A stretch of 64,000 nucleotides of DNA from Desertivirga arenae (lineage in GTDB: Bacteria > Bacteroidota > Bacteroidia > Sphingobacteriales > Sphingobacteriaceae): positions 310,001-374,000 of the forward strand of contig NZ_JAFEWE010000005.1 of assembly GCF_017355785.1 (NCBI RefSeq). Direction: 5' to 3'. Within the stretch, counting starts at the first letter, position 1. Every line of letters starts with the position of its first letter. The position numbers and the translations under genes are program-made. Of this stretch, positions 39,481 through 58,081 are shown piece by piece. The notes beneath the pieces are model-generated. The model did not search any database, was not told the origin of the DNA, and worked only from the letters and a program-made list of their open reading frames with translations.

Positions 39481-42414
39481 CTATCTTTTCACCGGAACTG
39501 ATTCAAGCACTTTTATCAAAGCATCTAAATTTATCGGTTTCGAGATGTAATCGTCCATGCCTGCTTCTATACATCTGATCCGGTCTTCAGTTAAAGCATT
39601 TGCAGTCATCGCTACAATATGAGGCTGAACAATTGAAGCGTTCTCTCTTATTACCTGAGTAGCCTCAAGACCATCCATTTCCGGCATTAGCATATCCATA
39701 AAGACAAGATCGTACTGTTTGCTATCTACCATTTCAACCGCATGCTTTCCGTTAGGTGCTACCTCAGGCTCATATCCTAACTTATTCAATATCCTTACCG
39801 CCAGTTTTTGGTTGATCAGGTTGTCTTCAGCAATTAGAATCTGTAGAGGAAACCGTTCTGCAAAATCTTCCGATAATAAAGGAGCTTTCTCTTTTGATAT
39901 CTGAGGTTCATCCTTCTTTTGCTTTAGCTGCGTCTGCACTACTTTATACAATTGCTGTTGTTTTACAGGTTTTGTAAGCACAGCACTAAAAAGGTGCGGA
40001 TACTTTGACATACTTTCATCTCCTATTGAACTGAGCAAAATAATGGTCTGAGAAGGAGCTATTTGTTTTATTAACTGAGCGAGCTCCACCCCGTCCATTT
40101 CAGGCATTTGCATATCTGATATAACGAGGTCAAAACTTTCTGTTTTAAGAACACTAAGAGCTTCAGCCGCAGAAAGCGCTACCTTCACCGACAACTTCCA
40201 TAGTTCCAGCTGGTTTCTAAGGATAGTACAATTGTTCAAGTTATCGTCAACCACCAAAATTCGCTTACCTTCTGTTTCACGTCCAAAAGTGATATAATGC
40301 TTAACCGCACTTTCAGCTGCCTTAGATAGTATGTTGAAATAGAACGTAGTTCCCTCTCCTTCTTTACTCTTCACACCAATTTCACCGCCCATAAGTTCTA
40401 CAAGCCGCTCACTTATTGCTAAACCCAAACCAGTGCCTCCATATTTCCGCGTTGTAGAGGAATCAACCTGAGAAAACGCTTTAAAAAGTTTGTTAAGTTT
40501 ATCTTCAGGTATTCCAATCCCAGTATCGGACACCTCGAAGGTTATGTTCAAACTAGAATCATTACTCATTTGTTGGTATACCTTAATAAAAACCTCGCCT
40601 TCCTTCGTAAACTTAACCGCGTTACTTACCAGGTTGATAAGGATTTGTCTAAGCCTTAAACTATCGCCAATAATTGTTGCAGGTAAACGATGGTCTATTT
40701 GATAGATCAGGTCTATTCCTATCTGAGCAGCTTTTCCTGCAAATACGTCCATTACGTTCTCTACACATTGACGTAACTCAAACTCATGATGTTCTATTTC
40801 CATGTGTCCTGACTCAATCTTCGAGAAGTCTAATATATCATTTATCACACCCAGCAGTGCCTCACCACTTGTATTGATAACTTGCACATACTCTTCCTGC
40901 TCCTCACTCAGCTCGGTCTGAGCTAGTAATGAAGCCATTCCGATAACTCCATTCATAGGAGTTCGAATTTCATGACTCATAGTAGCCAGGAAAATGCTTT
41001 TCGCCTTGTCAGCTTTCTCTGCTTCTGCCTGTGCCAATTCTGCCTCATAACGTTTCGCATGAAGTTGCTCGTTCAGCAGGAGTAAAGTTTCTGACTGGAC
41101 TTGTAGATCCTCCGACTGGACTTGCAACTCTTCTGACTGTGCTTGTAATTCCTCAGCCTGCGATTGCAGTTCCTCATTCATATTCTGCAAGGTTTGTGAT
41201 TGCGCAAGCAGCTCTTCGTTTACCTCTTTAAGGTGCTCGGACTGATCATGTAATTGTCCGTTAAGACTAAGTACCTCCGAGTTTTTACGTTCCAGCGCTT
41301 TATTTGCCTTTTTAGCCCGGATCCATTGTCTTAATGCAACTATTCCAAGTAGAATCGCCAGAAAAAGTATTACTACAATTACCCTTAAAGTAAACTGCTG
41401 GCTTTTATAGATTTCCTGTTGCGACTCCATCAAGCGCTGTTGCCGGATGATATCTTCCTGTTGCCCACTGATCACCTTCCATTGAAGCTGCATCAGGTGA
41501 ACATTAGAGGAGTCGATAACAAGCGTCGGCAGTTTATTCTCCTTTATATAAGGTCGTTTTTTTAAAATGTTGACAGCTACTTTAATTACTTCCTTTCCCC
41601 CGGTTGGATATAAAACAGAAGCATCTATCTTTCGTTCCGCTACCATCTGAATACCTCCATTCGCAGTGGGAAGCGCATCAATGCCGATAAACTTAGCATT
41701 CCGGTTTATTCCTAAAGAATCAAAAACCTGGCGGGCAGCAAAGGCCATCTCATCATTGTGAGCATAAACGGCATCTATGTTTTTTAACAATGAAAGGTTT
41801 TTAAGTAACTGATCCTTTGCCACAGACCGGTGCCAGGCACCGGATATTTTGGAAACGATCTTTATCCCAGGATAAGCCTTTACTCCTTCAGAAAATCCCT
41901 TGCCTCTATCCCTCGCAGGAGATGAATGCTCAGTTCCTGTAATTTCCAAAACCCTCGCTTTAGGCTTCAAACTTCCTAAATACTTACCGGCTATTTTTCC
42001 TATTTCAAGATTATCTCCACCTACGAAAGCAGTGTAATGATTAGATGTAGTCCTGCGATCCAATACTATAACAGGGATCCCTTTTCTGTAAGCAGCCTCC
42101 ACAGCAGGAGTAAGTGGCTCAGTCTCATTAGGAGAAATTATCAAAAGGTCTAGCTTTTGAGAAGCTAGTTCTTCAATCTGACGGACTTGTGTAGCACTAT
42201 TACCGTTGGCATCGCGGTAGATCAGATCAATATCCGGGTTGAAGGATAACTCCATCTGTACATCCTCCATCATCTTCTTTCGCCAATCGTCAGCACCTGT
42301 ACATTGAGAAAAGCCAACAGTATATCTTACTTCCTGCATATCTCCACAGCTGAAAAGACAAAAAAACAAATACACGCAAAGGAGCCGAAAGAGCGAACGT
42401 TTTAGATCTGGCAT
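39481..42414 (-). CDS. Hybrid histidine kinase with a sugar-binding sensor domain and two receivers
   Basis: A 977-residue protein from the ATG at 42412-42414 (an earlier start at 42477 only adds 21 residues before the signal). It has a Cys-rich signal segment ([13 protein letters not shown]), a periplasmic binding-protein domain of the ribose/galactose type (about 30-315; [54 protein letters not shown]), one membrane segment ([17 protein letters not shown], about 350), a long coiled coil with repeated QSEELQVQ units (about 370-470), HisKA ([13 protein letters not shown]), HATPase ([10 protein letters not shown]) and two receivers ([24 protein letters not shown]). There is no DNA-binding output, so the phosphate must pass to another protein. 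Confidence 0.93.
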
Positions 42415-43000: not shown

Positions 43001-43399
43001 TCATTCAACTTGCTGTTCAATTGCGTTCTGTACTACCTTCAAAATTTTAAAGCTTTTTAACCCTCCTGGCATTTCCCACTGAACTTCGGCTCCAACCAAA
43101 TATCCTAAAAGTGCTATACCCATAGGCGCAAATACCGAGATCCTATTTTTCTTCAGATTGGCTTCTGCTGGTGCTACCAGTGTAAAGCTGAACTTTTGCT
43201 TGCTGACCAGGTCTAATACTTCAACAAAAGAATTAAGCGCAACTGCATCATAGGGAAGCTTTTCCAAGGGTACCACCCTAGCATGGTGGAGTTCAAGTAG
43301 TAATTTCTTCCTGTTAAAATCCGAAAGAACAGCTTTTTGAAGATGCTGACTTAATAGGTCCATATCCTTTTGAAGGATAATTAATTGGGAATCTTTCAT
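43001..43399 (-). CDS. GreA/GreB-family protein (Rnk-like), copy 1
   Basis: A 132-residue paralogue of the next gene. Shared layout: a short N-terminal helix (DSQLIILQKDMDLLSQHLQK), a central beta segment (VALNSFVEVLDL), and the GreA/GreB C-terminal domain (ISVFAPMGIALLGYLVGAEV, then VQWEMPGGLKSFKILKV). The acidic Gre finger is missing. Its ATG is only six bases after the stop of the glutamate-synthase-like gene, which ends in a variable dinucleotide repeat; changes in the repeat would move that stop onto the ATG (see findings). That makes its translation potentially phase-dependent. Confidence 0.8.
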   Translation of the reverse strand: MKDSQLIILQKDMDLLSQHLQKAVLSDFNRKKLLLELHHARVVPLEKLPYDAVALNSFVEVLDLVSKQKFSFTLVAPAEANLKKNRISVFAPMGIALLGYLVGAEVQWEMPGGLKSFKILKVVQNAIEQQVE

Positions 43400-43405
43400 T
43401 TGATC

Positions 43406-44650
<1,245 letters not shown>

Positions 44651-49304: not shown

Positions 49305-50099
49305 CTATATGATTGTTTTTATCGTTCCGCCTTCAACCCTGATAGCAGCTCCATTGATGGCAGATGCCAAAGGGCTAACATAATAAGCTACGGTATTGGC
49401 CACCTCCTCCACTGATGCGAAACGTTGAATCAAAGATGTTGGCCTGATATCTTTGAAGAAGTTCTGCTCGGCTTCCGGTGCTGAAATCCCAGCAGCTTCA
49501 GCCATTTCAGAAATAAAGCTTTCAATTCCTCTTGATTTTGTTGGTCCGGGTAAAATAGAATTTACTGTCACTCCTGTACCCTTTGTAAGCTCGGCCATAC
49601 CGCGGCTGACTGCTATCTGCGCAGTTTTTGTCATTCCGTAATGAACCATCTCACTTGCCACCGAAACGGCCGTTTCACTTGAAATAAAAATCACCCGTCC
49701 CCAGTTGTTTTTTAACATTTTAGGGAACAGGTATCGCGATAAGCGTACACCGCTCATTACGTTCATATCAAAAAAGCGGAACCAATCCTCATCTGAGATA
49801 TCTTCAAAGGGTCTTGGTTCAAATATTCCTGCATTATTTATAAGGATATCAATAGGAGGAAGATTTCTGAGTAAATCGTTTATCTCATCTACCTTTAAAA
49901 AATCGGCAGCAATACCTGAAACATTATTATTAGATGATGTTTTTTTCAAAGCTAGAACAGCTGCATCAACCGCACCCTGAGTTCTTCCATTGATAATGAC
50001 TGTGGCACCTTCTGCAGCGAGGCGCCCGGCTATTGCGTAACCGATTCCAGCTGTTGATCCGCTAATGAAAGCAGTTTTATTTTTTAATTGTAAATCCAT
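49305..50099 (-). CDS. Short-chain dehydrogenase/reductase
   Basis: A 264-residue classical SDR. The cofactor site is FISGSTAGIGYAIAG (about 9-23), NNAG (about 88-91) in DILINNAGIFEPR, and the catalytic Ser, Tyr and Lys are in FISSETAVSVASEMVHYGMTKTA (Y-x-x-x-K). The C-terminus lacks any extension. It is 15 bases downstream of the DJ-1/PfpI gene, one transcript. The pair may belong to carbonyl or oxidant detoxification. The substrate is unknown. Confidence 0.94.
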   Translation of the reverse strand: MDLQLKNKTAFISGSTAGIGYAIAGRLAAEGATVIINGRTQGAVDAAVLALKKTSSNNNVSGIAADFLKVDEINDLLRNLPPIDILINNAGIFEPRPFEDISDEDWFRFFDMNVMSGVRLSRYLFPKMLKNNWGRVIFISSETAVSVASEMVHYGMTKTAQIAVSRGMAELTKGTGVTVNSILPGPTKSRGIESFISEMAEAAGISAPEAEQNFFKDIRPTSLIQRFASVEEVANTVAYYVSPLASAINGAAIRVEGGTIKTII

Positions 50100-50114
50100 T
50101 TTATTTTTGAAAAT

Positions 50115-50900
50115 TTATTTGTTTATAATCTCTAAAATCGCCTTCCCCACACTACTGGCAGACTGTGGGTTTTGTCCAGTAATCACTCTTGCGTCAATAG
50201 CTACATGAACTTGCCAGGGTGCAGACTTCTCAAACTTTGACCCTCGCTCTATCAATTTCGTCTCGAGAGAAAATGGCACAATCTCATTCATTTTAACTTC
50301 TGTCTCTTCTTCGTTGGTAAATGCGTTGATCTTCTTCCCCTCAATCAGATATTTGCCGTTGCTAAGCTTGATATTTACAAGACCGGCTGGTCCGTGACAA
50401 ACAGCAGCCACTACTCCCCCTCTCTCGTATATATCCCGGGCAATGGCTGCCAATTTTGTATCTTCTGCTAAATCCCACATGGCGCCATGCCCTCCTGCAT
50501 AAAAAATTGCATCGTATTCTGCTGCCTTCACTTGAGCAGGACTCAAGGTATTATTAATCTTATCAGAATAAACCTTATCATTCCAAAACCGGGCATTAAT
50601 CTCATCAGTTAAATCGAATCCGTCTATGGGCGCCTTTCCCCCCTTCGGACTTACAAAGTCGATCTCAAATCCCGCATTTCTCAACACCTCCCAGGGATGG
50701 GAGACTTCAGATAAATAATATCCCGTAGGTTCTCCAGTAGATCCCTTTTTGTCGTGGCTAGTCACCACGAATAAAATTTTCTTTTTCATAGCTTTTGATT
50801 TTTTGATGTGGGTATTTCCTTGTGAAAGTACTGCAACTGGTGTCAGAAACAGTATAAGCGCCGTGGAGAGGCGGCGTAGAACCTTAAAATTTATATTCAT
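50115..50900 (-). CDS. DJ-1/PfpI (class I glutamine amidotransferase-like) protein, exported form
   Basis: A 261-residue protein of the Hsp31/YajL type. The nucleophile Cys is in AAVCHGPAGL (about residue 167) with the conserved Glu in the early YYLSEVSHPWEVL block and DAIFYAGGHGAMWDL nearby. Members act as glyoxalase III or chaperone-like enzymes. The first 29 residues (FKVLRRLSTALILFLTPVAV) look like a signal or membrane anchor, so this form is probably periplasmic; an internal Met at residue 38 (KAMKKKILFVVTS) would give a cytoplasmic form. It shares a transcript with the SDR, 15 bases apart. Confidence 0.92.
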   Translation of the reverse strand: MNINFKVLRRLSTALILFLTPVAVLSQGNTHIKKSKAMKKKILFVVTSHDKKGSTGEPTGYYLSEVSHPWEVLRNAGFEIDFVSPKGGKAPIDGFDLTDEINARFWNDKVYSDKINNTLSPAQVKAAEYDAIFYAGGHGAMWDLAEDTKLAAIARDIYERGGVVAAVCHGPAGLVNIKLSNGKYLIEGKKINAFTNEEETEVKMNEIVPFSLETKLIERGSKFEKSAPWQVHVAIDARVITGQNPQSASSVGKAILEIINK

Positions 50901-51077
50901 AGTCTTGCTTTATTTCCTTCGCAAAATTGTAGCTAAGGCAAGACTTAGCACAGGAATGAGGTCACTAATTTGATGTGAGGTAAGTCACACCTTAAAGGGC
51001 TCCCAATCGATGGAAAAAAGATCGTTGAAACTGAAAGGTGACTAAAAGATGCTAAGGCTATCACAAAAGGAAGCCCT

Positions 51078-51640
51078 TTAACTGGTTAAACGACTTAAAG
51101 TCTCGCGCGAAACTCCGAGATAAGCTGCAATAAGAGATTTGGGAACGCGCTGAATTAAAGAAGGATGTTGCTGCATAAGTTGCTCATATCTCTCTTTCGC
51201 GTTATTATTCATTAATGATAAGATTCTTTGTTGAAGGGCAATATAGCCTCCATTTGATTTCCTTCTGAAGAAATGCTCGACTTTATGTATTTCGGCACAC
51301 AACTTCTCGCGGTTTAAAAGCGAGAGGCAAAGTACTTCAACATCTTCAAGGCAAACTATATCAAGAGTAGCATTAGTTTGGTTGAAATAGGCTTGGTAAT
51401 CGCAGATCCACCAGTCAACCATTGCAAATTGGAGGATATGTTCCTTACCGTCGGAATTAGTGAATGAAGCTTTTAGCAACCCCTTTAAAAAAAAAAATCA
51501 TTAAAAACAGGGCTATCAGCTTGAATTAGAAACTGATGCTTTTTAAACTTACGCGACGTAAAATGGGATAAAATGTACTCAAATTCCTGATCCGTAAGGG
51601 GGCTGAATTTCTCTATATGACTGCGCAATTCAATGCTCAT
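51078..51640 (-). pseudogene. Crp/Fnr-family regulator gene split by a frameshift in a poly-T tract
   Basis: From the ATG at 51638-51640 the frame encodes MSIELRSHIEKFSPL and continues through FKKHQFLIQADSP to NDFFF, then meets a stop in a run of 11 T (plus-strand A run 51487-51497). One more T would give NDFFFLKGLLKASF and join the remaining frame, which holds the rest of a cyclic-nucleotide-binding domain (WWICDYQAYFNQTNATLDIV) and the Crp helix-turn-helix (SLIAAYLGVSRETLSRL). Without the shift the protein would be about 188 residues, normal for the family. The downstream part alone begins only at a TTG. It lies 177 bases from the DJ-1/SDR operon, a likely target. Confidence 0.85.
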
Positions 51641-51644
51641 CCAA

Positions 51645-51652
51645 CAAATTTA
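51645..51652 (-). promoter_or_regulatory. -7 element 4 bases from the Crp/Fnr start codon
   Basis: Read leftward, TAAATTTG (51652-51645) is a perfect TAnnTTTG match followed by TTGG and then ATG. The transcript would begin at or near the ATG, i.e. be leaderless. The same arrangement precedes the LLM gene at 62215. Confidence 0.55.
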
Positions 51653-51665
51653 GCTAAACTTGGTC

Positions 51666-53105
51666 CTATTGAAACTTAATCACTACAAGTTTCTTATCCT
51701 GCTTGTCATAATAGGCAAACTGATGATAATTGTTAGCAACAAATACAGATGAACCATCCTCTGGAATTTTGATGGACTCTGAAAATTCTTGTATTTGCTC
51801 TGCTACAGAAAGCTTCATTTCTCCTTCAATATGTTGCCCGGAAGAAGGATTAGCAAGTGCCTTAAAGCGGGTAACTCGATTCCAGGATGCACCTCCTCCA
51901 AAAGTAGGGTAAAATGACATGCTTGCACCTCCCATTGGCATAAACCCCCCGGTTGTCTGGGTTATTTTTTTATAAGCGCCAACAGTAATTTCGTCCTGGC
52001 CATAAGAATTCCTCACAGCCGTAATAACCGGATCTCCGTTGGTAACTTTTCTCAGAAACTGCTTTGTTTTTGAAAGCTCTCTACTGGCGTTCATAGAATA
52101 TACCGTTCCACCCCCATCTTGGGTTATAGGCGTGTTTCTAAAGTGAATAAGGTCTTCTGCTGCTGTATAAAATTTAGCGATTTGCTCACCAGTATTAAAG
52201 TCGTTAATGGTGATACCAAGACCTTCGGAACTGGCAAGGACAGAATACAGGCGGTCTTTTAACAGAAAAGAATTAAACTTAGAAAAGTATTCATTCTCCT
52301 GATCACTACATTTTCTTTTTACTTCCCTAATGCTTACCTCACTATTACCCAAATTAAATATCAACAACTTTAATGATTCTGGATCTTTATCCATTAATAA
52401 AATTAAGCTATCATTCCTCAAGTATAATTTATTAGGCGCATCAGCAATATCTGCTTCACACTCTATCTCTGGGTCAACTATTGCTATGTCAGCAGATTTT
52501 GATAAGCCAGAATATGAAGACAGTTCGTTCCATAAACTCCCATTTCGTAGATTTTTGTTTATTCCGTTTACTGTCAGGTCAAAGCGTACCTTATTTATTT
52601 TATCAGCTCCGGCAAATTTATAAACATTGAAGACGGCGGATTTTTTGGAGGCAGTGATGTAGAGAAAATTATTAGGAGAATTGAGTTGTCCTAGTATCTT
52701 TTCACCCTTGAATTCCAATGGCAATGTATATTCCTTAACTACCCCGGTCACCACATCTACCTCCTTATTAATTAAATTACCGAGATAGGTCGACTTTAAA
52801 TAAATCTCTATTTTATCCTTGTTAATAAAGCCGCCTAGAAATTGCTCATCTCCAGCTGTCGTTTCAACGTTTTTTATGGCCTGCATCTTACTGTCAAACA
52901 AAAACACTTTCAAGCGTTCATCATTTTTCAGCAACACGCAACTGCTACTTTTGGTGGAATCGGAAATACTTTTAATCCTTATTGGGCCATGCCCTCCGCG
53001 CCAGCCAATAATCTGCTCAAAAGGTTTATCCTGACTAAATGCAAATTGACTAAAGAAAATGCATAGGGAGGTAATTAGAATTCTAATAAAAATGTGAGGG
53101 TTCAC
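51666..53105 (-). CDS. Hypothetical exported protein, 479 residues
   Basis: I recognise no family. It has a signal peptide (FIRILITSLCIFFSQFAFSQ) and a beta-rich mature part, with repeated strands of the form K.YLF.....I that suggest a propeller-like or barrel-like fold (VVTGVVKEYTLPLEFKGEK; LKLLIFNLGNSEVSI; YHQFAYYDKQDKKLVVIKF). A Gly/Met-rich stretch (TTGGFMPMGGASMSFYPTFGG, about 395-415) is unusual. It is probably periplasmic or on the surface. It ends 25 bases before the Crp/Fnr start codon and could be the first gene of that transcript. Confidence 0.7.
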   Translation of the reverse strand: MNPHIFIRILITSLCIFFSQFAFSQDKPFEQIIGWRGGHGPIRIKSISDSTKSSSCVLLKNDERLKVFLFDSKMQAIKNVETTAGDEQFLGGFINKDKIEIYLKSTYLGNLINKEVDVVTGVVKEYTLPLEFKGEKILGQLNSPNNFLYITASKKSAVFNVYKFAGADKINKVRFDLTVNGINKNLRNGSLWNELSSYSGLSKSADIAIVDPEIECEADIADAPNKLYLRNDSLILLMDKDPESLKLLIFNLGNSEVSIREVKRKCSDQENEYFSKFNSFLLKDRLYSVLASSEGLGITINDFNTGEQIAKFYTAAEDLIHFRNTPITQDGGGTVYSMNASRELSKTKQFLRKVTNGDPVITAVRNSYGQDEITVGAYKKITQTTGGFMPMGGASMSFYPTFGGGASWNRVTRFKALANPSSGQHIEGEMKLSVAEQIQEFSESIKIPEDGSSVFVANNYHQFAYYDKQDKKLVVIKFQ

Positions 53106-53438: not shown

Positions 53439-56400
53439 ATGATGAATTTTCTACTTACCTACGTAAAGGGTATCCTTTTACTCTTCTTTCTTTTATCGGG
53501 CGTAGCTCAAGCACAAACAGCACTGGTAAAAGGCCAGGTACTCTCTCTCGAAACTAATAAACCTTTAGCAGGGGTTTCAATAAAGGTTAAAGGTACAAAT
53601 CGGGGAACCTCCTCTGATCTTGAGGGGAAATTTTCAATTAATGCTAACTCCACCGAAACCCTAATCGCTACCTTTATTGGCTATACATCGGAAGAGGTTT
53701 TAGCAAGGGAAGCGTCTGTTATCTACATGGCTTCTGAATCAAAAGCACTTAACGAGGTAGTAGTAACAGCCTTAGGTATTAAAAGAGAGGAGAAGTCCTT
53801 AGGATACGCTGCACAAAGCCTAAAAAACGATGCAGTTACCGATGCAAGAACCACTAACTGGGTGAATTCCCTTTCAGGCAAAGTTGCAGGACTCAACATT
53901 CAGGGAACTGGGTCGGGTCCTGTGTCTTCATCGCGAATTACCTTAAGAGGGGAATCTTCGCTCAACCTTGACAATAATCAGGCGCTTATTGTCGTGGACG
54001 GTATCCCTGTCAGTAATAAGATAACCGGTACTGGTTTTAAAGCTCACCTTGCTACAGACAGTCCTGTGGATTTTGGTTCAAGTATGTCTGATATCAATCC
54101 TGATGATATAGAAACCGTCACTGTACTTAAAGGCGCAGGGGCTACTGCTTTGTATGGAAGCCGTGCAGCATCAGGAGCTATTATTATCACTACTAAGTCT
54201 GGTAAAGCACAAAAAGGTATTGGTGTTACCTATAACACTACAGTAAGTTTTGACCAGGTAAATCGCTGGCCCGATTATCAGTTCGAATACGGTGAAGGTC
54301 GGACAGATAGCTATTATTCGTATGGCAACACTGCCGATGGTATGAATACCAGTACAACGGCCTCAGCAGGCCGGGCCTGGGGACCAAAATTCGATGGCCA
54401 GATGTATTATCAATACAATCCTTCTGCTGCGGATGGAATTTCAACTGAAAGGACACCTTGGGTGGCAGACAAAAATTACATTTCAGACTACTTTAAAACA
54501 GGAAGAACGCTTACTAATAGCGTAAATCTTGAGGGTGGCTCTGATAAGGGTTCGATCAGGGCGTCAATTACTCATATGACGAATGACTGGATCGTGGAGA
54601 ATACTGGTTTCAAAAGATTGACTACTGCCCTATCTGCTAACTATAAATTAACAGATAAATTAAAGGTTTCAGCTAAAGCAAATTACACCAACAAGAAAAG
54701 CGATAATCTTCCATCAGCGGGTTACAATAATCAAACACTGATGTATTTCCTGATCATCGGAACGGCACCAAACATTAAGGCAGATTGGTTTAAACCCATG
54801 TGGAAACCAGGTTTGGAGGGCGTTCAACAATTCCAGCCATTTAACCCTGGACCAGATAATCCTTACATTGAGATGTATGAGGTTTTAAATACCATGAACC
54901 GTCATGGTATTGTCGGAGGTCTTACTGCAAACTATACTTTTTCCCCTAAGCTGGAACTGATGGTAAGAAGCGGACTGGATTTGGCCTTTGAATATCGTTC
55001 TCAACAACGTCCGTATAGCATTACCCGCTATCCACGAGGAATGTACAGGGAGCAAAACGTTTTTTCGAATGAGATCAATACAGACGCATTACTAACCTTT
55101 AAAGATAAGATCGGCTCCGATGTTTCCTTTAGCATTTCAGGAGGAGGAAATATAATGTCTCAAACCTATGATTTCGCTGGCATGTACGCTGATCAACTTG
55201 CACAGCCCGGCATTTATCAAATTTCGAACAGCTTAGACCAGGCCGTTGCAGATCCTCTTAAGACACGAAAGTCAATCCATAGTGCATATGGTTTGGCCCA
55301 GTTTTCATTCAAAGATAGGATCTTTGTTGATTTGACCGGAAGAAATGATTGGTCAAGCGCCTTGCCATATAAAAACAATTCTTTCTTCTATCCTTCAGTT
55401 AGTACGAGTTTCATCGCTAATGAAATATTTAATCTTCCGAAAGCTATTTCTTATGCAAAGCTTCGTTTGTCGCTTGCACAGGTAGGGAATGACACACGGC
55501 CTTACCAGGATCAGAAATACTATGACCGGATCTATAGTAACAGCTTTACCAACCCTTCTACACTTTACAATCCGGATCTTCAACCAGAAATCACTACTTC
55601 CACCGAAGCGGGTCTTGATGTACGATTGTTTCAAAACCGTCTTGGCCTGGACCTGGCAATATATAACAACAACAGTAAAAACCAAATCCTTGCTGTGCCT
55701 TTGGATCAGACTTCCGGGTATTCAAGTGCTTTGGTAAATGCAGGATTGATAAATAGCCGTGGATTGGAAGTTTCACTAAACGGAAAACCTGTAAAAGGCA
55801 AAAAGTTTAATTGGAGCACGACTTTAAACTGGGCTGCTAACAGAAGCTACGTGCGTGAATTGAGGGAAGGTATTACTAGTCAGATCCTGTATTCACACGA
55901 ATCCAATGTGAGTATAGAGGCCAGGGTTGGAGGACGAATGGGAGATCTTTACGGAAAAGGATTTCAAAGAGCTCCTGACGGACAGATCATTTACACTACG
56001 GAAGGAGTTCCAGCTACACCCGACCCGCTTCTTCGTAAATGGGGAAACGCATTTCCAGATTGGAAGGCAGGTTTGATGAACGAATTTTCGTTTAAAAATG
56101 TAAGAATAAGTGCATTAATTGAGGGTCAGGCAGGCGGAAGTATGTACTCTCAAACTAATCATAAGAATAATACATTAGGAAAAACAATGGTAACCTTACC
56201 TGGCCGGGATGAAGGGATCATTGGGTTAGGAGTTGTAAAGCAGACTGATGGCTCTTTTGTTCCAAATACTACACGGGTAAAGGCAATGACCTATTATGAC
56301 AACTATTATCAAATAGGTAATGCCGAGACTAACATATTCAGTACTGACTTCCTGAAATTGCGGGAAGCACGTATAGAATGGGACTTGCCTAAAAAATTAT

Positions 56401-56588
56401 TAAATAAGGTTCATCTGAATGCAACCACCCTTGCATTGTATGGAAGAGATCTCTTCGTTATCACCAAATTCCCAGCCTTTGATCCTGAGGGTGGAAACCT
56501 GAACGCGGGTACACTTACTCCAGGCGTAGAACTGGCGCAGTTTCCCTCCGCACGCACTTTTGGTTTAAACGCAACCTTCAAATTCTAA
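53439..56588 (+). CDS. SusC/RagA-family TonB-linked outer membrane transporter (second locus)
   Basis: A 1049-residue transporter. After the signal peptide (to AQAQ) come the regulatory-like domain (VKGQVLSLETNKPLAGVSIKVKG, about 28-50), the TonB region LNEVVVTALGIKREEKSLGY, a plug with NPDDIETVTVLKGAGATALYGSRAASG and a barrel ending RTFGLNATFKF. The motif LGIKREEKSLGYA places it in a different SusC subgroup from the first locus. It is followed after 5 bases by a SusD gene and two phosphodiesterases in one operon, so the imported substrate is probably a phosphodiester rather than a plain glycan. Confidence 0.95.
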   Translation: MMNFLLTYVKGILLLFFLLSGVAQAQTALVKGQVLSLETNKPLAGVSIKVKGTNRGTSSDLEGKFSINANSTETLIATFIGYTSEEVLAREASVIYMASESKALNEVVVTALGIKREEKSLGYAAQSLKNDAVTDARTTNWVNSLSGKVAGLNIQGTGSGPVSSSRITLRGESSLNLDNNQALIVVDGIPVSNKITGTGFKAHLATDSPVDFGSSMSDINPDDIETVTVLKGAGATALYGSRAASGAIIITTKSGKAQKGIGVTYNTTVSFDQVNRWPDYQFEYGEGRTDSYYSYGNTADGMNTSTTASAGRAWGPKFDGQMYYQYNPSAADGISTERTPWVADKNYISDYFKTGRTLTNSVNLEGGSDKGSIRASITHMTNDWIVENTGFKRLTTALSANYKLTDKLKVSAKANYTNKKSDNLPSAGYNNQTLMYFLIIGTAPNIKADWFKPMWKPGLEGVQQFQPFNPGPDNPYIEMYEVLNTMNRHGIVGGLTANYTFSPKLELMVRSGLDLAFEYRSQQRPYSITRYPRGMYREQNVFSNEINTDALLTFKDKIGSDVSFSISGGGNIMSQTYDFAGMYADQLAQPGIYQISNSLDQAVADPLKTRKSIHSAYGLAQFSFKDRIFVDLTGRNDWSSALPYKNNSFFYPSVSTSFIANEIFNLPKAISYAKLRLSLAQVGNDTRPYQDQKYYDRIYSNSFTNPSTLYNPDLQPEITTSTEAGLDVRLFQNRLGLDLAIYNNNSKNQILAVPLDQTSGYSSALVNAGLINSRGLEVSLNGKPVKGKKFNWSTTLNWAANRSYVRELREGITSQILYSHESNVSIEARVGGRMGDLYGKGFQRAPDGQIIYTTEGVPATPDPLLRKWGNAFPDWKAGLMNEFSFKNVRISALIEGQAGGSMYSQTNHKNNTLGKTMVTLPGRDEGIIGLGVVKQTDGSFVPNTTRVKAMTYYDNYYQIGNAETNIFSTDFLKLREARIEWDLPKKLLNKVHLNATTLALYGRDLFVITKFPAFDPEGGNLNAGTLTPGVELAQFPSARTFGLNATFKF

Positions 56589-56593
56589 TATTC

Positions 56594-58081
56594 ATGAAAA
56601 CTTTTATTAATAAAATAGTTCTAATTGCAATTCCGTCATTCCTGCTGCTGTCGTGTACCGATAACTTTCAGGACATCAATACTGACCCCAATCGCCCAAA
56701 AAAAATTACTCCTGGTGTTATGTTGGGACAAATGCAGTATAAGATGGTAAACACGACTATTAATTCGGCCTATTCATTCGGCCATGAATTGATGCAGTAT
56801 ACTGCGCCTCGCAATAGTACTAGTGGGGGCGTACATCGTTATATCCTTCAACCTTCTACAGCTACCAGCTTATGGAATAACTTATACAGCCAGTTGACCG
56901 ATGTGGAAGATATGTATAATATCTCCAGCCAGCTTGGGGAAGATAATTACAAAGCCATTTCGCTAATCTACAAGTCATGGAGCTACTCCATTCTCACTGA
57001 TTGTTTTGGAGACATCCCCTACTCTCAGGCAAGCAAAGCTACTGAAGGCGTATTAACACCTGCCTTTGATGCTCAAAAAGATATTTACACTAATATACTT
57101 GCAGACCTGGACAGAGCTAATTCTTTATTAAATAGCTCTAAAGCTCTCACTTACGGCGGCGATATCCTTTACAGTGCAAATTCCCTTAGTGGCGCAAATA
57201 ACCCCGGTATAACCAAATGGAAAAAATTTTGCAACTCCCTTCGGTTAAGGTTACTGCTTCGTATCTCAAAGCGAAATGCTGAGATAAATGTGAATGAACA
57301 GATAAATTCAATTCTAGCAAATCCTGATAAGTATCCAATATTCACAAGTAATGCAGATGAGGCTATACTTAAATATCCGAATACACTGCCTTATTACAAT
57401 CCCTACTTCAATGCCCGTCAAAGTGATTGGCGCGCAGACAATTCTTATACACGCTTCTTTATAAATAAACTTAACGCAGATTCTGACCCACGCCGCACGG
57501 TCTGGGCTTATACTGTTAAGGTTGGAGACCAACAGGTTTATCAGGGAATTGAAAGTGGGTATCCTGGCTCACAGCAAAATATCCCAGAAGGTAATTCCGG
57601 TTATAATGATGGCCTGAAATCACTGCCTCAACTGGGAATAATGATGAGTTATGCCGAATTACAATTCATCCTGGCAGAGCTTGCTCTAAAAGGTTTTAAT
57701 ACCGGAAACACCGCAAAAAACCATTACAATGCTGGAATTACGGCTTCTATGATACAGTGGGGTGTTACCCTTCCAACCGGTTATCTTGCTAAAGAAGGAA
57801 TTGCGTATGATGAGGCGGCAACACCTGAAAAACAGCTGGAACAGATCATGCTTCAAAAATGGCTGGCCTTGTTTTTCACCGACCTTCAGGCATGGTACGA
57901 AAAACGCAGAACCGGATTACCCGCAATGCCAAGAGGATCAGGAATTCCAGCACAAAACACCTTCCCCTCCAGGGCTCTCTACCCTACTTATTTACAGTCC
58001 TTAAACAATGACAACCTGCAAAAAGTATTGCAAACAATGGGAGGAGACCAAACAACGGTAAAGGTTTGGTGGGATAAATAA
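56594..58081 (+). CDS. SusD-like outer membrane lipoprotein (SusD_like_2 type)
   Basis: A 495-residue lipoprotein (signal ending LLSC, about Cys 21) with TDNFQDINTDPNRPK at the start of the mature part, ALISLIYKSWSYSILTDCFGDIPYSQA-like helices (residues about 120-150), LQFILAELALKG and the C-terminal LQKWLALFFTDLQAWYEKRRTG. These match the second SusD-like family, whose members bind non-starch nutrients. Five bases after susC and 13 bases before the GDPD gene, it caps the second transporter. Confidence 0.92.
   Translation: MKTFINKIVLIAIPSFLLLSCTDNFQDINTDPNRPKKITPGVMLGQMQYKMVNTTINSAYSFGHELMQYTAPRNSTSGGVHRYILQPSTATSLWNNLYSQLTDVEDMYNISSQLGEDNYKAISLIYKSWSYSILTDCFGDIPYSQASKATEGVLTPAFDAQKDIYTNILADLDRANSLLNSSKALTYGGDILYSANSLSGANNPGITKWKKFCNSLRLRLLLRISKRNAEINVNEQINSILANPDKYPIFTSNADEAILKYPNTLPYYNPYFNARQSDWRADNSYTRFFINKLNADSDPRRTVWAYTVKVGDQQVYQGIESGYPGSQQNIPEGNSGYNDGLKSLPQLGIMMSYAELQFILAELALKGFNTGNTAKNHYNAGITASMIQWGVTLPTGYLAKEGIAYDEAATPEKQLEQIMLQKWLALFFTDLQAWYEKRRTGLPAMPRGSGIPAQNTFPSRALYPTYLQSLNNDNLQKVLQTMGGDQTTVKVWWDK

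Follow-up and report, generated by a model that had tools for sequence, protein, structure and literature searches.

A recent one-base deletion has probably broken the reading frame of a Crp/Fnr-type regulator gene in Desertivirga arenae, at a run of 11 T (T11) in the 64,000-nucleotide stretch of DNA analysed here (the window). The gene lies on the minus strand at 51078-51640, and its two parts are a single base out of register, as judged from two overlapping open frames and from an intact counterpart in a relative. The frame break is a real feature of the assembly, of an ordinary kind, and we infer that the mutation is genuine in the cells and recent.

The regulator gene is split at an 11-T tract

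The upstream frame (51485-51640, minus strand) begins with an ATG at 51640 and runs for 51 codons, ending in ...PVFNDFFF, to a TAA stop at 51485-51487; it covers the N-terminal part of the ligand-binding domain. The downstream frame (51078-51491, minus strand; 137 amino acids plus stop) is open from the T tract to a stop at 51078-51080, reading ...FLKGLLKASFTNSDGKEH...ETLSRLTS, and holds the rest of the cNMP-binding domain and the putative helix-turn-helix. The two halves are offset by one base (modulo 3), and the site of the break is T11 itself, at 51487-51497 on the minus strand (A11 on the plus strand). An earlier reading of this DNA, made from the sequence alone, had placed the break at this tract, and the two frames and their offset agree with it.

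T11 is the sole run longer than 9 in the window, where the next longest is 9. The whole genome (6.19 Mb in 43 contigs) contains 10 A/T runs of exactly 10 (24 matches, minus two for each eleven), seven of exactly 11 and none longer, and the longest A/T runs in two congeners are 12 and 13. In a genome with seven such runs, an A/T run of 11 is in itself not very unlikely. Two of the seven elevens overlap a stop-to-stop ORF of at least 80 codons: the T11 of the regulator and L066 (G000:C34:22690-22700), a T11 run within a 221-aa stop-to-stop ORF (...SSGNLFFFGLALLSI...), which is apparently in frame and has weak coding scores.

The window also carries a perfect (GT)18 dinucleotide repeat at 43414-43449, (AC)18 on the minus strand, which looks at least as slippage-prone as T11. 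The (AC)18 encodes the THTHTHTHTHT tail of the ORF at 43406-44650 and ends 14 nt upstream of the ATG of a GreA/GreB-domain ORF (43001-43399). Such dinucleotide arrays number five in the window's genome (15-19 units) and one in each congener (11 and 22 units), and 5 of these 7 have AC/CA on the sense strand, 0-41 nt ahead of the first ATG of an ORF of at least 100 aa.

A relative carries the regulator intact, within the same gene module

The closest relative found, L018, shares 81% identity over 136 residues of the downstream part and comes from a contig of a metagenome-assembled genome (MAG) labelled uncultured Flavobacterium; named matches in the same search include Pedobacter and Mucilaginibacter. 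The L018 regulator is an intact ORF of 187 aa whose start, MSIELR, is identical to that of the window copy, and the C-terminal ends correspond (ETLSRLAN in L018, ETLSRLTS in the window). When the two genes were aligned with MAFFT, a single one-base gap appeared, at T11, and no other gap was found within the gene. The existence of this intact counterpart indicates that the regulator gene is real.

The assignment to the Crp/Fnr family, already proposed by the sequence-only reading, was upheld by domain and structure searches with L018. The cNMP-binding domain (PF00027) is recognized in the intact L018 regulator at 39.1 bits, above the cut-off of 27.5, and reaches 23.3 bits, below that cut-off, in the downstream fragment of the window alone. 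For the Crp-type helix-turn-helix (PF13545), the L018 score of 18.6 bits and the window fragment's score of 19.3 both fall short of the cut-off of 27, and the upstream 51-aa frame alone has no Pfam or NCBIfam match. By sequence, the solved structure nearest to the L018 regulator is 3dn7, with CAP/CRP much weaker, and these near full-length phmmer matches support a putative Crp-type helix-turn-helix.

In both the window and L018, the regulator is followed on the same strand by a DJ-1/PfpI-family gene and a short-chain dehydrogenase (SDR) gene, in that order. In the window both are intact and on the minus strand, the former at 50115-50900 (PF01965, 70.1 bits) and the latter at 49305-50099 (PF00106, 137.8 bits; 78% identical to the SDR of L018). 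In at least 12 of the 58 homologous loci examined, L018 included, the regulator homologue has a DJ-1 gene downstream of it and in the same orientation, a count that is a lower bound since most loci had just 1.5 kb of flank; the spacing from the end of the match to the DJ-1 gene is 88-118 nt in 11 loci and 715 nt in L037, and in 3 further loci a DJ-1 gene is close by on the opposite strand. The regulator and the DJ-1 gene thus form an old association. The window copy groups with L018 in a tree that included two rows of the window's own copy (L068, L070), with mixed support (98/28).

The whole module (window 49305-51640) is common to the window and the Flavobacterium-labelled MAG, and at E <= 1e-40 DJ-1 matches are absent from congener G001 and number one, at 40%, in congener G002. 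Horizontal transfer, differential loss or a mislabelled MAG contig are each possible explanations of this sharing. Among plasmid records, best identity was below 60% in all 42. Upstream of the regulator, the neighbouring ORF at 51666-53105 has no match in Pfam; further along, two adjoining plus-strand ORFs of 1049 and 495 aa (53439-58081) look by eye like a SusC/SusD-type pair.

Four nucleotides before the ATG of the regulator sits a promoter-like TAnnTTTG element (TAAATTTG; 51645-51652, minus strand), which we take to be the Bacteroidota -7 motif. L018 has the same kind of element (TATCTTTG), likewise 4 nt from its ATG, so the promoter may have been kept. The element is present in 10 of the 57 loci in which the start could be placed (of 58), as against 2.4% of shuffles, and is absent at that place in the next-nearest relatives, L034-L038.

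The tract appears to be new in the window's lineage

The 58 homologous loci were drawn from a set of 62: L001 and L003, both representing the window's own copy, were left out, as were L002, which coincides with L006, and L013, a distinct but near-identical second copy of L010. The 58 include 6 paralogues from the window's own genome. L010 and L013 are two Crp/Fnr-type genes 9 kb apart in congener G002 (G002:C3:118473-118874 and G002:C3:127884-128285), identical at 391 of 402 bases and differing in the N-terminal sequence just upstream.

Within 21 nt around the site, the longest T run among the homologues is 7 in one locus (L018), 6 in one, 5 in two and at most 4 in the other 54. The reading frame is open across the site in all 58, from 35 codons before it to 100 codons after. 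At the position where a twelfth T would give a third Phe, 47 loci have Val, 9 have Ile and 2 have Leu, and no homologue has Phe. Because none of the 58 has a T run above 7, a frame break at the site or any residue but these three, the tract is not an inherited switch. The sequence-only reading had suggested a reversible switch, for which the lack of conservation (no T run above 7 in the 58 loci) gives no backing; it had also noted that the gene would be continuous at 12 T, and with Phe in none of the homologues a prior 12-T state need not be assumed, the loss of one non-T base being just as simple a history. In the comparison with relatives that it had proposed, all 58 loci are open across the site and lack the tract. 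By the loci examined, then, T11 appears as a new feature of the window's lineage and not as an inherited contingency locus.

Two histories could have produced T11, namely slippage in a longer T run that had itself just arisen, or the loss of a non-T base that joined two shorter ones; either would be a one-base deletion costing the gene its frame. At the site, L018 has T7 and then GTG GTT, with the alignment gap falling exactly at the first G. The codon pair GTT TTA occurs at the site in 3 of the 58 loci (L005, L023, L027), and when placed behind an L018-like T7 and stripped of its G, it would give exactly 11 T. Thus, it is plausible that a single non-T base that had kept two shorter T runs apart was deleted, T11 being the scar of that event. 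It is also plausible that a change from Val to Phe lengthened the T run, which then lost one base by slippage, and once a long run exists, mutation rates favour slippage, which points to this second history. The conservation of the residue would favour the first. Of note, a deletion can leave a long run at a frame break instead of being caused by it, and the presence of a slippery tract is therefore, by itself, a poor argument for phase variation.

Neither half of the gene shows clear decay

We compared the two halves of the regulator with L018 and with the neighbouring genes. Nonsynonymous divergence (pN) from L018 is 0.136 for the regulator (0.165 for its N part, 0.125 for its C part), 0.130 for the SDR gene and 0.221 for the DJ-1 gene. 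Unique amino-acid changes in the window copy and in L018, counted with eight outgroups, were 14/11, 14/14, 14/13, 13/11, 9/14, 10/12, 8/13 and 3/14, so that across the eight the window copy shows no surplus relative to L018. Of the 23 strongly conserved columns (at least 90% of the 58 homologues), 22 are kept in the window copy, and the one that is lost is changed in L018 too. Among the 111 positions that do not vary across L034-L037, 10 differ in the window copy and 6 in L018, a weak hint that the window copy may have taken on extra change. Besides the break at T11, neither the frames nor the L018 alignment revealed a further stop or gap in the gene.

The absence of a second lesion, the absence of a rate excess and the 22 of 23 columns kept give no support to an old pseudogene. 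Since synonymous sites are saturated between the window and L018 (pS 0.93), any bound on the age of the lesion is rough; as a rough estimate, a small part at most of the branch since L018 would have been unconstrained. The lack of clear decay in either half means that the lesion is recent or that the consensus is in error. Both points had been anticipated by the sequence-only reading, which described the halves as well preserved and the change as recent or an error, and the neighbour-like pN, the retained columns and the uninterrupted frames agree with it.

Run lengths in the assembly and the case for a sequencing error

If the assembled consensus were one base short, the gene would be intact in the organism, an explanation that we hold to be unlikely, yet the most serious competitor of a recent mutation. 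It would account for a frameshift that is confined to a single copy and falls at the greatest run length of the genome, with neither half clearly decayed, and for an assembly that has 10 tens and seven elevens and no run of 12 or more when the congeners reach 12 and 13. In an excerpt of the GeneTack work (PMC3711429), frameshifted genes outside clusters are attributed to likely indel mutations or sequencing errors, which suits the mutation reading as well as an error; BLASTp-validated singletons are expected there to be sequencing errors and not genuine indels, which counts against the mutation reading. However, an in-frame T12 requires Phe where all 58 homologues have Val, Ile or Leu, and a survey of runs in 1.264 Mb (1.2 Mb of genome stretches plus the window) found the scorable coding runs in frame, 33 of 33 at length 8 and 3 of 3 at length 9.

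At these scorable runs of 8-9, all 36 in frame, there is no sign of systematic run-length errors, which, for lengths 8-9 only, speaks against a technology prone to such errors. Unscorable in the survey were 93 runs of 8, 19 of 9, both runs of 10 and all four of 11, one of which is the T11 of the regulator, classed as 'uncertain'. In a separate comparison the best frames of its two flanks differ and score low, and the label given for this ('diff') was also given to runs outside genes. Among runs of 6-7, 737 were in frame and nine were called 'shift', of which the one at window position 42360 is a gene junction.

Switching and recoding at the tract

The slipperiness of T11, noted in the sequence-only reading, accords with an excerpt of PMC1088944, in which long A/T runs are likely hypermutable via replication slippage and selection against such runs shows, in a large share of the bacterial genomes surveyed, at a length of nine bases, which T11 exceeds. 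Such slippage, together with the preservation of both gene halves, could suit a phase-variable switch in which changes in tract length turn the regulator on and off. We consider this very improbable: none of the 58 homologous loci has the tract, their longest T run being 7, and 5 of the 6 other A/T elevens of the genome lie clear of any stop-to-stop ORF of 80 codons, which means that the genome has no group of genes bearing tracts of this kind.

A maintained recoding, in which transcription slippage at T11 or -1 ribosomal slippage yields a functional protein under selection, is likewise improbable. The lack of clear decay would fit a gene kept functional through slippage, and precedents are found in the excerpted literature: insertion in a U run links two frames in Shigella mxiE (PMC1088944), transcript insertions, which occur in A or T runs, increase exponentially as the run lengthens (PMC5574713), and no unusual acceleration is seen in four Blochmannia genes with frameshifts in tracts of this type (PMC3017870). 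Yet the T run is not conserved (none above 7 in the 58 loci), no homologue has a frame break at the site, and there is no RNA structure above chance around it. In the latter analysis, a pseudoknot-free folding of the 101 nt from the tract onward, z was 0.60 and 142 of 200 shuffles were equally or more stable. The tract-free, unbroken relatives, together with the lack of RNA structure beyond shuffles, give no support to conserved programmed recoding. The PMC5574713 survey saw no instance in which such transcript slippage restored a frame.

A narrower proposal is that T11 is in use, slippage either setting a low, noisy level of the regulator or toggling it, such that DJ-1 and SDR would vary within a clone. 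It is narrower than the switch and the recoding because an effect on the module is also required, and we give it a slim chance.

Consequences of the probable deletion and comparison with known systems

With a recent one-base deletion at T11, translation would end after 51 residues, within the ligand-binding domain and ahead of the putative DNA-binding helix, and a product that stops before this helix should be inactive as the main product. The regulator presumably acts on its DJ-1 and SDR neighbours, which may now be without their usual regulator, and in annotation the gene is to be marked as frameshifted in the assembly. A little full-length protein might arise incidentally, if RNA polymerase inserts an extra U or the ribosome slips by -1; low-level slippage at T11 is likely, and probably incidental.

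In Campylobacter, flgR is a phase-variable regulator with a homopolymer tract. The window gene resembles the flgR type as a regulator gene bearing a slippery tract, but it gives no sign of two states, and its relatives lack the tract. With the GeneTack singletons, as far as the excerpt of PMC3711429 describes them, the window gene shares a single break and intact relatives (0 of the 58 loci frameshifted); it differs in that its break falls on a T run as long as any in its genome. Shigella mxiE, also a regulator, has a break in an A/T run that can be bridged by an added U (PMC1088944, in part), and endosymbiont genes have breaks in A/T runs thought to be rescued by transcriptional slippage (PMC3017870, in part). 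In these excerpted cases the run is used or possibly corrected, whereas the window run is not conserved. As for the Crp/Fnr regulators themselves, the 187-aa L018 protein combines their cNMP-binding domain with a putative Crp-type helix-turn-helix, whereas in the window a frameshift divides the gene.
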